From Methylobacterium radiodurans (GTDB taxonomy: Bacteria > Pseudomonadota > Alphaproteobacteria > Rhizobiales > Beijerinckiaceae), in contig NZ_CP029551.1 of assembly GCF_003173735.1 (NCBI RefSeq), positions 809,001 to 873,000 of the forward strand: a stretch of DNA of 64,000 nt, read 5' to 3'. Both the position numbers and the translations under genes were made by a program. The first letter of the stretch is position 1, and each line of letters opens with the position of its first letter. Of the stretch, positions 4,207 to 45,404 are shown piece after piece. The notes under the pieces were generated by a model that was not told where the DNA came from, made no database searches, and saw nothing but the letters and a program-made list of their open reading frames with translations.

Positions 4207-5061
4207 TCAGGCCGCCGCGGGGGCCGGCACCCGGCCTTCCCGCTGGATCACCTCGGAGGCGAGGCGCAGATAGGCCTGGGACCCCGCGCATTTGAGGTCG
4301 TAGAGCAGCGCCGGCTTGCCGTGCGAGGGCGCCTCCGAGATCCGCACGTTGCGCGGGATCATCGTCTCGTAGACCTTCTCGCCCATGAAGCTGCGGACAT
4401 CCGCCACCACCTGGTTCGAAAGGTTGTTGCGGGGATCGAACATCGTCAGCACGACACCCTGGATCGTCAGCTTCGGGTTGAGCGCGGCGCGCACCTGCTC
4501 GACGGTGCGCAGGAGCTGGCTCAGGCCTTCCAGCGCGAAGAACTCGCATTGCAGCGGCACCATCACGGCGTCGGCCGCGACCAGGGCGTTGATGGTCAGG
4601 AGGTTCAGCGAGGGCGGGCAGTCGATCAGCACGTAGCTGAAACCGGCGGTCTCCGGCGCGTCGGCGAGTCCCTTGAGCACGTTGCGCAGGCGGTGGGCCC
4701 TGTCGGGGCTCTGGGCCATCTCCAACTCGAGGCCGAGCAGGTCCATGGTGGAGGCCGCGATCGACAAGCGCGGCACGGCGGTCGGCACCACGGCCTGGGC
4801 GAGCGTCGCCTCGCCGGCCATCACCTCGTAGGTCGAGACGCGCCGGGCGCGCCGGTCGATGCCGAGCCCCGTCGAGGCGTTGCCCTGCGGGTCGAGGTCG
4901 ATCACCAGCACCTGCTCGCCGATCGCGGCAAGCGCGGTGCCCAGGTTGATCGCCGTCGTGGTCTTGCCGACGCCGCCCTTCTGGTTGGCGAGCGCGAGGA
5001 TCCGCAGCGGGCGCGCGGAAGCGGCCGGCTGGACGGGGGAGGGGAGGACGTCGCTTGTCAT
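4207..5061 (-). CDS. parA: Chromosome-partitioning ATPase ParA
   Basis: 284 aa from the ATG at 5061 (MTSDVLPSPVQPAA). ParA forms ATP-bound dimers on the nucleoid and moves ParB-parS complexes. The deviant Walker A is ANQKGGVGKTTTAINLG with the signature Lys, Walker A' is VIDLDPQGNAST, and Walker B is VLIDCPPSL. The frame is open about 110 codons further upstream, but that part overlaps rsmG and is an antisense-type artefact; the chosen ATG overlaps the rsmG stop by 4 bp (ATGA), arguing for translational coupling. A Pro/Ala-rich N-terminal extension of about 20 residues precedes the core. Confidence 0.96.
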   Translation of the reverse strand: MTSDVLPSPVQPAASARPLRILALANQKGGVGKTTTAINLGTALAAIGEQVLVIDLDPQGNASTGLGIDRRARRVSTYEVMAGEATLAQAVVPTAVPRLSIAASTMDLLGLELEMAQSPDRAHRLRNVLKGLADAPETAGFSYVLIDCPPSLNLLTINALVAADAVMVPLQCEFFALEGLSQLLRTVEQVRAALNPKLTIQGVVLTMFDPRNNLSNQVVADVRSFMGEKVYETMIPRNVRISEAPSHGKPALLYDLKCAGSQAYLRLASEVIQREGRVPAPAAA

Positions 5062-5702
5062 GGGCTCGATCGGTGACTCGCTGGCGCGAGATCGGTGACC
5101 CGCACGATCCGGGCCATCGACTCGGTTCGGCTCGGAACGAGGTCGTAGGCGACTGTCCACCGTGCGGCCGCCCGGGTCAATTCCGCTTCGACCTCGCGCC
5201 CTTTCGGAAACAGGCCGGTGGTGCCCGATTTCAACAGCGGTTCGGTCCAAGCGATGAGCTGTTCGAGCGGCGCGAGCGCCCGGGCGCAGACCACGTCCAC
5301 ACCCTGGAAATTCGGGATGACTGCCTCGATCCGCGCGGCGTGGACCCGCGCCCGCGCGCCGGTCAGCCGGGCGGCCTCGGTGAGGAAGGCGCATTTGCGC
5401 GCGTTGCTCTCGACGAGGTCGACGCTGATATCGGGGCCGCCCGCGATGGCGAGGATCAGCCCCGGGATGCCGGCCCCGGAACCCAGATCGAGCCAGCGCC
5501 GTGCATCCGGAGCCAGCGCGAGCAGCTGCAGGGCGTCGGCGACGTGGCGGGTCCAGACCTCGGCGAGCGTTGCCGGGCCGACGAGGTTCTTGACCGATTG
5601 CCAGCGCCGGAGCTGCGCGACGTAGATATCGAGTCGCTCGGCCGTTTCACGTGAAACACCGGCTTCGGCGAGGACGCGGTCCCGATCATCCAGCCTTGCC
5701 AT
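5058..5702 (-). CDS. rsmG: 16S rRNA m7G527 methyltransferase RsmG
   Basis: 214 aa. It methylates N7 of G527 in 16S rRNA using SAM. The SAM-binding motif is WLDLGSGAGIPGLILAI; VESNARKCAFL and VVCARALAPLEQL are family hallmarks. The stop of mnmG and the start of rsmG share one base (TGATG-type overlap), and the rsmG stop overlaps the parA start by 4 bp. The peptide VSRET at residues 16-20 is encoded by the parS core at 5644-5657, so this stretch is under selection for both protein and ParB binding. Length is normal. Confidence 0.95.
   Translation of the reverse strand: MARLDDRDRVLAEAGVSRETAERLDIYVAQLRRWQSVKNLVGPATLAEVWTRHVADALQLLALAPDARRWLDLGSGAGIPGLILAIAGGPDISVDLVESNARKCAFLTEAARLTGARARVHAARIEAVIPNFQGVDVVCARALAPLEQLIAWTEPLLKSGTTGLFPKGREVEAELTRAAARWTVAYDLVPSRTESMARIVRVTDLAPASHRSSP
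5644..5657. other. parS: parS centromere site inside rsmG
   Basis: Perfect 14-bp palindrome GTTTCACGTGAAAC, the canonical chromosomal parS core. It lies in the 5' part of rsmG, where it encodes VSRET, and about 1.5 kb upstream of parB in the same operon. ParB is expected to nucleate here; it is about 6.5 kb from the putative origin. Confidence 0.93.

Positions 5703-10808: not shown

Positions 10809-10814
<6 letters not shown>
10770..10814. repeat. Interspersed palindromic repeat of the Hyphomicrobiales type
   Basis: 45-bp element with terminal arms GCATGATG (10770-10777) and CATCATGC (10807-10814) around an inner part containing CCGGAAAACCGG and CACTTTTCCG. This resembles the GATCATGC...GGAAAACCGG...CACTTTTCC elements scattered through many Hyphomicrobiales genomes. 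The right arm overlaps the end of hemE and supplies its TGA stop. Confidence 0.7.
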
Positions 10815-11957
<1,143 letters not shown>

Positions 11958-12159
11958 CCCGCTCCCCGATCGCGGCGCCCGACCGGCGCCGTCCTTGCGA
12001 AAACCCTTCGGCACCCGAGGGCACCGTCTCTCGGAGGTCCTCGGCTCCGCCCGCAGGAGGGAGCGCGACGGCTCCGTCCCCACACCGGCCCTATCTAAGA
12101 GAAGAGAGAATCTAGGACTCTGTTTTTTCTATTGGAGGCTGGATGACGGGACCGCAACC

Positions 12160-12168
12160 GTGTCCACA
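12160..12168. promoter_or_regulatory. DnaA-box-like 9-mer
   Basis: GTGTCCACA, 7 of 9 matches to TTATCCACA, located between the AT-rich run and the CtrA box. Weak on its own; significance comes from context. Confidence 0.4.
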
Positions 12169-12190
12169 GGCCGTCCCCGCCGCCGCGACG

Positions 12191-12206
12191 TTAAGAGGGC
12201 TTTAAC
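12191..12206 (+). promoter_or_regulatory. CtrA binding site, full consensus TTAA-N7-TTAAC
   Basis: TTAAGAGGGCTTTAAC is an exact match to the CtrA consensus TTAA-N7-TTAAC. In Caulobacter, CtrA boxes in the origin block initiation in swarmer cells. Placement in the hemE-ppsR gap, in DNA that is otherwise very GC-rich, makes a chance match unlikely. It could also control the hemE or ppsR promoter. Confidence 0.75.
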
Positions 12207-12394
12207 AGGTTCGCTCTAATGTCCGGGATAGGCTCGGCCCCAGAAGGCCTTGGGCGCAGGCGATGCGCGGAACGCGTGCCGGCGTCCCGGATTCTCCCAC
12301 GCACCCGGATTCCGGGTCGTTTGCCGACGTGCCTGTTGAGCGCGGAGTCGACGAGCGGGACGGAGCCGGCGCTGGACCCCGCCGCCGGGGCATC

Positions 12395-12403
12395 CTATCC
12401 ACA
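12395..12403. promoter_or_regulatory. DnaA box (8 of 9)
   Basis: CTATCCACA differs from TTATCCACA only at the first base. It is the best DnaA-box match in the hemE-ppsR gap, 58 bp before the ppsR start. Confidence 0.55.
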
Positions 12404-12428
12404 TTCATCGACTCCCCTGACGGCTCCC

Positions 12429-12437
12429 GGTGGACAA
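12429..12437. promoter_or_regulatory. DnaA-box-like 9-mer
   Basis: GGTGGACAA, whose complement TTGTCCACC matches TTATCCACA at 7 of 9 positions; opposite orientation to the box at 12395. Weak on its own. Confidence 0.35.
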
Positions 12438-12460
12438 GCGCGGAGCGCCGAGGCGACCGG

Positions 12461-13291
12461 ATGAGCCGCAGCTACTTCCACCTCCACCTCGTCTCGGACT
12501 CCACCGGCGAGACCCTGATCAATGTCGGCCGCGCGGCCGCCGCCCAGTACGAGGGCGTCTCGGCGATCGAGCACGTCTACCCGCTGGTGCGCTCCGCCTC
12601 CCAGCTCGAGCGGGTGATCTCCGAGATCAAGGCCGCGCCGGGCCTCGTGCTCTACACGCTGGTCGGCGGCGACCTCGGCGAGCGGCTCGAAGGCGCCTGC
12701 CGCGAGAGCGGCTCGCCCTGCCTCTCGGTGCTCCAGCCCGTGCACGCGTTGCTGCAATCCTATCTCGGCGCTCCCGTCGCGGCGCGGCCCGGCGCCCAGC
12801 ACATGCTGAACGCCGAGTACTTCAAGCGCATCGACGCGATGAACTTCACGCTCGCGCACGACGACGGCAACCTGCCGCACGATCTGGAAGAGGCGGACGT
12901 GATCCTGCTGGGCGTCAGCCGCACCTCGAAGACGCCGACCTCGATCTACCTGGCGAACCGCGGGCTGAAGACCACGAACCTGCCCCTCGTTCCCGGCGTC
13001 CCCCTGCCGCCGGAACTGGAGCGGGCCCGGCGCCCGCTGATCGTCGGGCTGTTCGCGAGCCCCGAGCGGATCGTGCAGATCCGCCAGAACCGGATCCTCA
13101 GCCTGCAGGCGGACGAGTCGACGACCTACGTGGACCGCACGGCCGTCGCCGACGAGATCACGGCCTCGCGCCGGCTCTTCACACGCAATCGCTGGCCGAC
13201 CATCGACGTGACCCGCCGCTCCATCGAGGAGACCGCCGCGGCGATCCTCGATCTCTACCGCGACCACCGCCTGAAGTTCATCGCGGTGTGA
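12461..13291 (+). CDS. ppsR: Pyruvate,phosphate dikinase / PEP synthase regulatory protein (DUF299)
   Basis: 276 aa from the ATG at 12461 ([18 protein letters not shown]); the frame is open 66 codons upstream but that part lies in the origin candidate. The family is a bifunctional ADP-dependent kinase and phosphate-dependent pyrophosphorylase that switches PPDK or PEP synthase off and on. The family motif VSDSTGET is at residues 11-18 and the P-loop [15 protein letters not shown] starts at 151. Which dikinase it controls cannot be read from the window. It is the alphaproteobacterial gene next to the origin (RP001-type). Here maf, aroE, coaE and dnaQ, which often follow it, are 39-42 kb away. 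Confidence 0.93.
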
Positions 13292-45378: not shown

Positions 45379-45404
45379 CCGTTCGTTTCACGTGAAACGA
45401 ACGG
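45379..45404. other. parS: parS centromere site in a 26-bp perfect palindrome
   Basis: The core GTTTCACGTGAAAC (45385-45398) is flanked by CCGTTC and GAACGG, so the whole 26 bp is a perfect inverted repeat. It lies between convergent genes (DUF3429-like and mnmE) and may also form a hairpin in both transcripts. About 33 kb from the origin candidate. Confidence 0.92.

Follow-up and report, generated by a model that had tools for sequence, protein, structure and literature searches.

The hemE-ppsR gap of Methylobacterium radiodurans as a probable chromosomal origin, with a second copy of its core in a nearby island

Where does the chromosome of Methylobacterium radiodurans start to replicate, and does it have a single place at which it could do so? 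The textbook view is that a bacterial chromosome has one origin. In Caulobacter crescentus (Cori) and other alphaproteobacteria with an origin of the hemE-RP001 type, it lies between hemE and the gene for a DUF299/RP001 protein, and the Sinorhizobium meliloti origin is also found at hemE. A literature search at the level of titles and abstract openings, with subscription papers outside its scope, returned no mapped Methylobacterium origin. We analysed a window of 64 kb (C1:809001-873000) of the single-contig, 5,539,695-bp chromosome (C1), in which hemE and ppsR flank a gap that an initial annotation, made from the letters alone, had proposed as a candidate origin. Our analysis leads us to hold with confidence that this gap is oriC and that a second, motif-complete copy of its core is found at a distance of 112.7 kb, within an island that carries transposition genes. 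The features discussed below are collected in Table 1.

Table 1. Features of the candidate origin, its surroundings and its second copy (window positions unless preceded by C1).
Feature	Position	Strand	Evidence or remark
hemE-ppsR intergenic gap, candidate oriC	11958..12460 (C1:820958-821460)		anatomy, conservation, parS-like sites, octamer polarity
hemE (uroporphyrinogen decarboxylase), left neighbour of gap	10809..11957	-	TIGR01464, 345.7 bits (cut-off 302.95)
ppsR / DUF299 (RP001-type), right neighbour of gap	12461..13291	+	NF003742, 337.6 bits (cut-off 225)
Origin core	12057..12437	+	90% identical to C1:933764-934147; ends at last DnaA-like box
AT-rich run with conserved 20-base element TCTAGGACTCTGTTTTTTCT; candidate unwinding element	12092..12133	+	GC, conservation
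DnaA-like box GTGTCCACA, 7/9	12160..12168	+	TCCACA part invariant in 40-sequence alignment
CtrA-type box TTAA-N7-TTAAC	12190..12206	both strands readable	motif count
DnaA-like box CTATCCACA, 8/9	12395..12403	+	motif count, alignment
DnaA-like box TTGTCCACC, 7/9	12429..12437	-	motif count, alignment
GANTC sites 1 and 2	12108..12120 (12108, 12116)		motif count
GANTC sites 3 and 4	12290..12312 (12290, 12308)		motif count
GANTC site 5	12345..12349		motif count
GANTC site 6	12410..12414		motif count
ParA-family ATPase gene, near first parS-like site	4207..5394 (longest open frame)	-	ParA-type models below curated cut-offs
parS-like site, 1 mismatch	5643..5658 (C1:814643)		6.3 kb left of gap
parS-like site, 2 mismatches	45384..45399 (C1:854384)		33 kb right of gap, between both origin copies
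Second origin core copy	C1:933764-934147	same direction as native core	90% identical to 12057-12437
dif-like site CGTTCGCATAAGATATATTATGGAACAT, at octamer switch	C1:3789871-3789898	-	6 mismatches to E. coli consensus

Anatomy and conservation of the hemE-ppsR gap

The anatomy described in the initial annotation was borne out: all the features that it names are present. Both neighbours of the gap were confirmed by profiles above their cut-offs, and motif counts recovered the three DnaA boxes (one at 8/9, two at 7/9), the six GANTC sites and the exact TTAA-N7-TTAAC box, which occurs nowhere else in the window. The AT-rich run was recovered as well: the lowest-GC 40-mers of the gap, starting at 12092-12094, are 32.5% GC against a gap mean of 68%. 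The chance level of these motifs was estimated with 1000 dinucleotide shuffles of the gap. At least six GANTC sites arose in 47 shuffles, one DnaA box with at most one mismatch in 36, and three DnaA boxes with at most two mismatches in 33; none matched the CtrA count of the gap. The annotation had also expected one to two GANTC sites per 500 bp, a figure lower than the shuffle mean of 2.7 and higher than the window background of 0.61 per 503 bp (78 sites in all); among 1270 overlapping 503-bp segments of the window, four contain at least six sites, all of them at the gap. Neither the GANTC count nor the number of DnaA boxes is more than modestly unusual on its own, and none of the small set of DnaA boxes is a perfect match. 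The case for an origin anatomy comes instead from the conservation of the motifs and the core across species.

The gap was matched in all 111 genus genomes searched. In a GTDB contig scan, M. gregans was the sole named genome to match a 27-base piece of the gap exactly. One alignment holds 71 of these genomes, M. radiodurans included, plus its duplicate core (72 rows), and a second alignment holds 40 sequences. Over the 70 genomes other than M. radiodurans, 89 of the 349 core columns are at least 97% constant. A TTAA-N7-TTAAC box is present on the minus strand in every row of the first alignment, that is, in 71 of 71 genomes and in the duplicate, and can also be read on the plus strand in 47 of the 72 rows; its spacer occurs in 15 different versions, the half-sites being kept while the spacer drifts. 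The 20-base element of the AT-rich run was found with at most two mismatches in 83 of the 111 genomes, twice in M. radiodurans and once in each of the other 82, a copy-number count that covers these 83 genomes only, since 28 have no match.

This arrangement suggests a scheme for the control of initiation. DnaA bound to the three divergent boxes would open the AT-rich run, and the CtrA-type box, which lies between the DnaA boxes, together with the clustered GANTC sites, would gate initiation through CtrA and CcrM methylation. Genes of both the ccrM and gcrA types are present in the genome. The former carries a RAMA domain (PF18755) above cut-off and matches the CcrM model NF050803 with an E value of 1.3e-182 and 606 bits, below the strict cut-off of 830; the latter matches PF07750 above cut-off. 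The gap is thus consistent with Caulobacter-like CtrA/CcrM/DnaA control. Like Cori, it is flanked by hemE and the DUF299/RP001 gene and has a CtrA-type box, an AT-rich run, weak DnaA boxes and GANTC sites, whereas Cori has several CtrA-type boxes and the Methylobacterium gap has one, and the likeness is one of features and not of aligned DNA. That hemE adjoins the C. crescentus oriC is also stated in PMC4403523. The comparison is different within the order of Methylobacterium, to which S. meliloti and Brucella abortus belong. The S. meliloti origin is reported to be without CtrA motifs (PMC4433202), and binding of B. abortus CtrA to the origin is described as not demonstrated (PMC2877005). The box of the Methylobacterium genomes, present in all 71 aligned, unlike in the S. 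meliloti origin, is therefore notable within the order.

The place of the origin on the chromosome

Several lines of evidence at the scale of the chromosome point to the same region. A scan of the whole 5.54 Mb found only two parS-like sites with at most two mismatches, one on each side of the gap, and its reversed control found none. The strand polarity of GGGNAGGG, which we take to be the guide-octamer pattern from FtsK work, was tested on about 1.44 Mb of the 5.54 Mb. The best strand switches fell at 0.80 and 3.78 Mb (dLL 29.6), with maxima of 9.5 in 200 letter permutations and 22.4 in 200 random flips of 20-kb blocks; a control octamer reached a dLL of 4.3, equalled by 100 of 200 block flips and so at chance level. 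At the second switch lies a dif-like site (3,789,871), the sole site with at most eight mismatches in the roughly 1.44 Mb scanned, the next best having nine; the octamer and dif lines each cover roughly one quarter of the chromosome. Complete 16S genes lie at 3.78 Mb (+) and 5.47 Mb (-), and a broken one at 4.04 Mb (-); with a terminus within 3.78-4.04 Mb, all would run in the direction of forks that leave 0.82 Mb. The GC skew of the sampled stretches was too weak for a usable signal and did not point to the gap.

Many bacteria have oriC next to dnaA, which in M. radiodurans lies at the contig start (C1:82-1488), and the chromosome could accordingly begin replication there, with the hemE gap conserved as a regulatory region for hemE and ppsR only. 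The same data make this most improbable. With the origin fixed at the gap (820,958) the polarity dLL is 25.5; fixed at dnaA it is 15.6, and even then the fit places a switch at 800 kb. The dnaA neighbourhood has no parS-like site in the whole-genome scan, and the core is also found motif-complete at an ectopic place, with neither hemE nor ppsR in the flanks searched. As an origin site, dnaA, 0.82 Mb from the gap, fits poorly.

With the origin fixed at the second core copy (934 kb) the octamer dLL is 25.2, and a stricter octamer gave 18.3 at 821 kb against 16.0 at 934 kb; the highest of ten origin places tried, 33.2 at 809 kb, owes part of its score to octamers that follow one another at 809-818 kb. 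A polarity switch opposite dif with parS nearby is thus found, with 821 kb and 934 kb inseparable. In its position between hemE and ppsR and its genus-conserved, non-coding core, the gap is like an oriC of the hemE-RP001 type. The claim that it is the chromosomal origin agrees with the parS-like sites, the octamer switch, the dif-like site, the orientation of the 16S genes and the conservation in 111 of 111 genomes, and we conclude that the gap is very probably the replication start of the M. radiodurans chromosome.

A second copy of the core and its island

A search of the genome with the gap found a second copy of the core, about 380 bp long, 112.7 kb from the native one and outside the window, with edges that fall close to those of the conserved core. 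Searches for hemE within the 3.4 kb around the copy and for ppsR within the 20 kb around it were both negative. The copy has lost none of the motifs: a script counted all six GANTC sites, the CtrA-type box and three boxes of the DnaA type. None of the 89 columns conserved at 97% or more deviates, and its private changes number 0 in the 166 columns conserved at 80% or more and 9 in the other 183 (about 0.003 by a simple calculation). With profile R1, the copy scores 254.9 bits and the native gap 254.7.

Second gap matches were listed in 16 genomes besides that of M. radiodurans. Seven belong to the gap itself, as additional pieces of it, eight are short pieces (31-41 bp) elsewhere, and one, in the draft genome G041 of another species, is a longer match at a separate place. 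M. radiodurans is thus alone among the 111 genus genomes with an intact second copy, in a search that scored the best six first-look candidates per genome, so that weak copies may escape. This singularity could be taken as a sign of misassembly or contamination; however, the genome is a single contig with completeness 100 and contamination 0.52, and the copy shares only 90% identity with the native gap and is embedded in unbroken sequence with flanks of its own, which makes an artefact scarcely credible.

The match in G041 lies on a 17-kb contig (11774-12109 of C112), is nearly full-length and scores 158.3 bits with R1; neither hemE nor ppsR was found on that contig. Judged from its sequence, this copy is partly decayed, because it deviates at 10 of the 89 highly conserved columns, and its four DnaA-like sites are none better than two mismatches. 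By script count it keeps the minus-strand CtrA-type box and four GANTC sites, for which reason we rejected the idea that it is dead. Contamination of the draft is a possible explanation of its presence. Near it are a umuC-like fragment and a chemotaxis-receptor-like gene, both named by reading and not by profile.

In a tree from 351 columns, the native core of M. radiodurans groups first with that of genome G021, taken to be M. gregans from the agreement of match position and gap sequence, then with the second copy and then with that of genome G023 (support 96/92 and 95/90). A clade of the native core and the copy was disfavoured by the AU test at a borderline p of 0.043, and a clade of the copy and G023 weakly so (p 0.068). 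Since the copy branches outside M. radiodurans and M. gregans, it is probably, on this borderline evidence, not a recent local duplication, and it appears to have split from the native core before these two species diverged. From this early split, horizontal transfer from a close relative is the most likely origin of the copy, and an old duplication followed by losses is less likely. The G023 lineage, which has the highest identity to the copy (94.0%), was at first considered as donor; the tree puts the copy between G023 and the pair of M. radiodurans and M. gregans, and with the weak result against a clade of the copy and G023, this lineage is one candidate donor among others.

The surroundings of the copy form a low-GC island at about 923-963 kb, with 60-67% GC in a chromosome of about 0.71 G+C. 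In the island, TniQ and TniB genes were identified with Pfam scores that exceed the cut-offs. A transposase gene falls short of the Pfam cut-offs but matches a TnsB model, and the island further encodes an ImmA-like protein and one of the TPR-GreABC-PIN type. We infer that the copy arrived with the island from a relative. A search for the ends of a transposition element found no convincing terminal repeat with a target duplication, and the copy is therefore only a candidate for its cargo. Among the matches listed for the 7 kb around the copy, other genomes share the core, the adjoining plasmid-type gene and short pieces.

That adjoining gene (C1:932962-933444, minus strand) encodes a 160-aa protein of a family found on 17 records of a plasmid collection, 16 from Methylobacterium and one from Methylorubrum, one of which looks chromosomal. 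The protein has no match in Pfam, PHROGs, PADLOC or NCBIfam, and the family has no constant neighbour in the five plasmid regions examined among the 17 records. Just upstream of the gene is a 22-bp inverted repeat, 95% complementary (933482-933530). The core itself was found in the plasmid, phage and viral collections in one record, a 2.83-Mb plasmid of M. bullatum (NZ_LR743510.1). It was set aside as a case of a plasmid-borne core because hemE and ppsR accompany it there, and in spite of its label the record is probably chromosomal DNA.

Other features of the region were observed in passing. The 1506-aa TPR protein (C1:925921-930441, plus strand), with its PIN-TPR-GreABC domain, is encoded near the ImmA-like regulator; the two are possibly a defence cargo, and the TPR protein has no PADLOC match. 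Phage-tail-like genes at C1:912000-923200 resemble, by eye, a gene transfer agent cluster that seems to end where the island starts. Farther away, a 20-kb stretch (C1:2062001-2082000) has a G+C of 0.45 in the chromosome of about 0.71, for which masked N could be the cause.

What the second copy may do, and what it means

The reading towards which we lean somewhat treats the second copy as an inert passenger of a plasmid- or transposon-derived island, free to decay, with all initiation at the native gap. The TniB and TniQ genes, the family of the neighbouring gene on 17 plasmid-collection records and the extra copy of G041, whose 10 deviating columns of 89 resemble decay, all favour it. Against it stands the distribution of private changes, which spare the conserved columns; the motifs may nevertheless have been conserved during the time when the copy was the donor's chromosomal origin.

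The island copy could also work as a second origin or serve as a spare one; the chromosome would then hold two homologous oriC 113 kb apart. All the motifs are kept, the octamer polarity fits both sites, and the copy lies within 112.7 kb of the native core, for which a random insertion would have a chance of about 4% by a simple calculation. Such closeness would be expected if the chromosome tolerates an additional working origin solely in the vicinity of the first. However, this is a prediction from sequence, the 4% figure is weak as it concerns a single insertion, and an alphaproteobacterial origin may need context beyond 380 bp, and we regard a second origin as unlikely, if well worth considering. 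A fuller and rather more speculative version is that the island captured the oriC core of a relative and delivered it in working order near the native origin, giving two homologous origins under DnaA/CtrA/CcrM control. As the copies form a direct repeat that encloses a parS-like site, recombination could also release a 113-kb circle with an oriC and parS of its own. Capture of the origin core may recur in the genus, as the G041 copy would suggest.

Engineered second origins have been studied in E. coli. PMC4403523 describes natural origin pairs as few and mostly untested, and lists putative double oriC from DoriC in Dehalobacter sp. CF, Ochrobactrum anthropi, Ralstonia pickettii and Acidaminococcus fermentans; the second predicted origin of Dehalobacter lies 150 kb away, in a putative genomic island. 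The pairs of Dehalobacter, Ochrobactrum and Ralstonia are there described as one site beside dnaA and another beside parB or hemE, whereas the second site of M. radiodurans is homologous to the native hemE-type core, at 90% identity. The same source names Mycobacterium bovis BCG Pasteur 1173P2, whose natural chromosome has the origin region in two homologous copies; these are identical copies of a whole gene block that arose by chromosomal duplication, in contrast to a core of about 380 bp, 90% identical, in an island. At the level of titles and abstract openings, and with subscription papers outside the scope, the literature returned no mobile element carrying a homologous chromosomal oriC.

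The genome of M. radiodurans is a test case for the acquisition of an origin with a mobile island. The 89 of 349 core columns that are at least 97% constant offer a handle on the bases that an alphaproteobacterial origin needs and, with its box in 71 of 71 genomes, Methylobacterium provides a test of CtrA gating of the origin in the order of S. meliloti.
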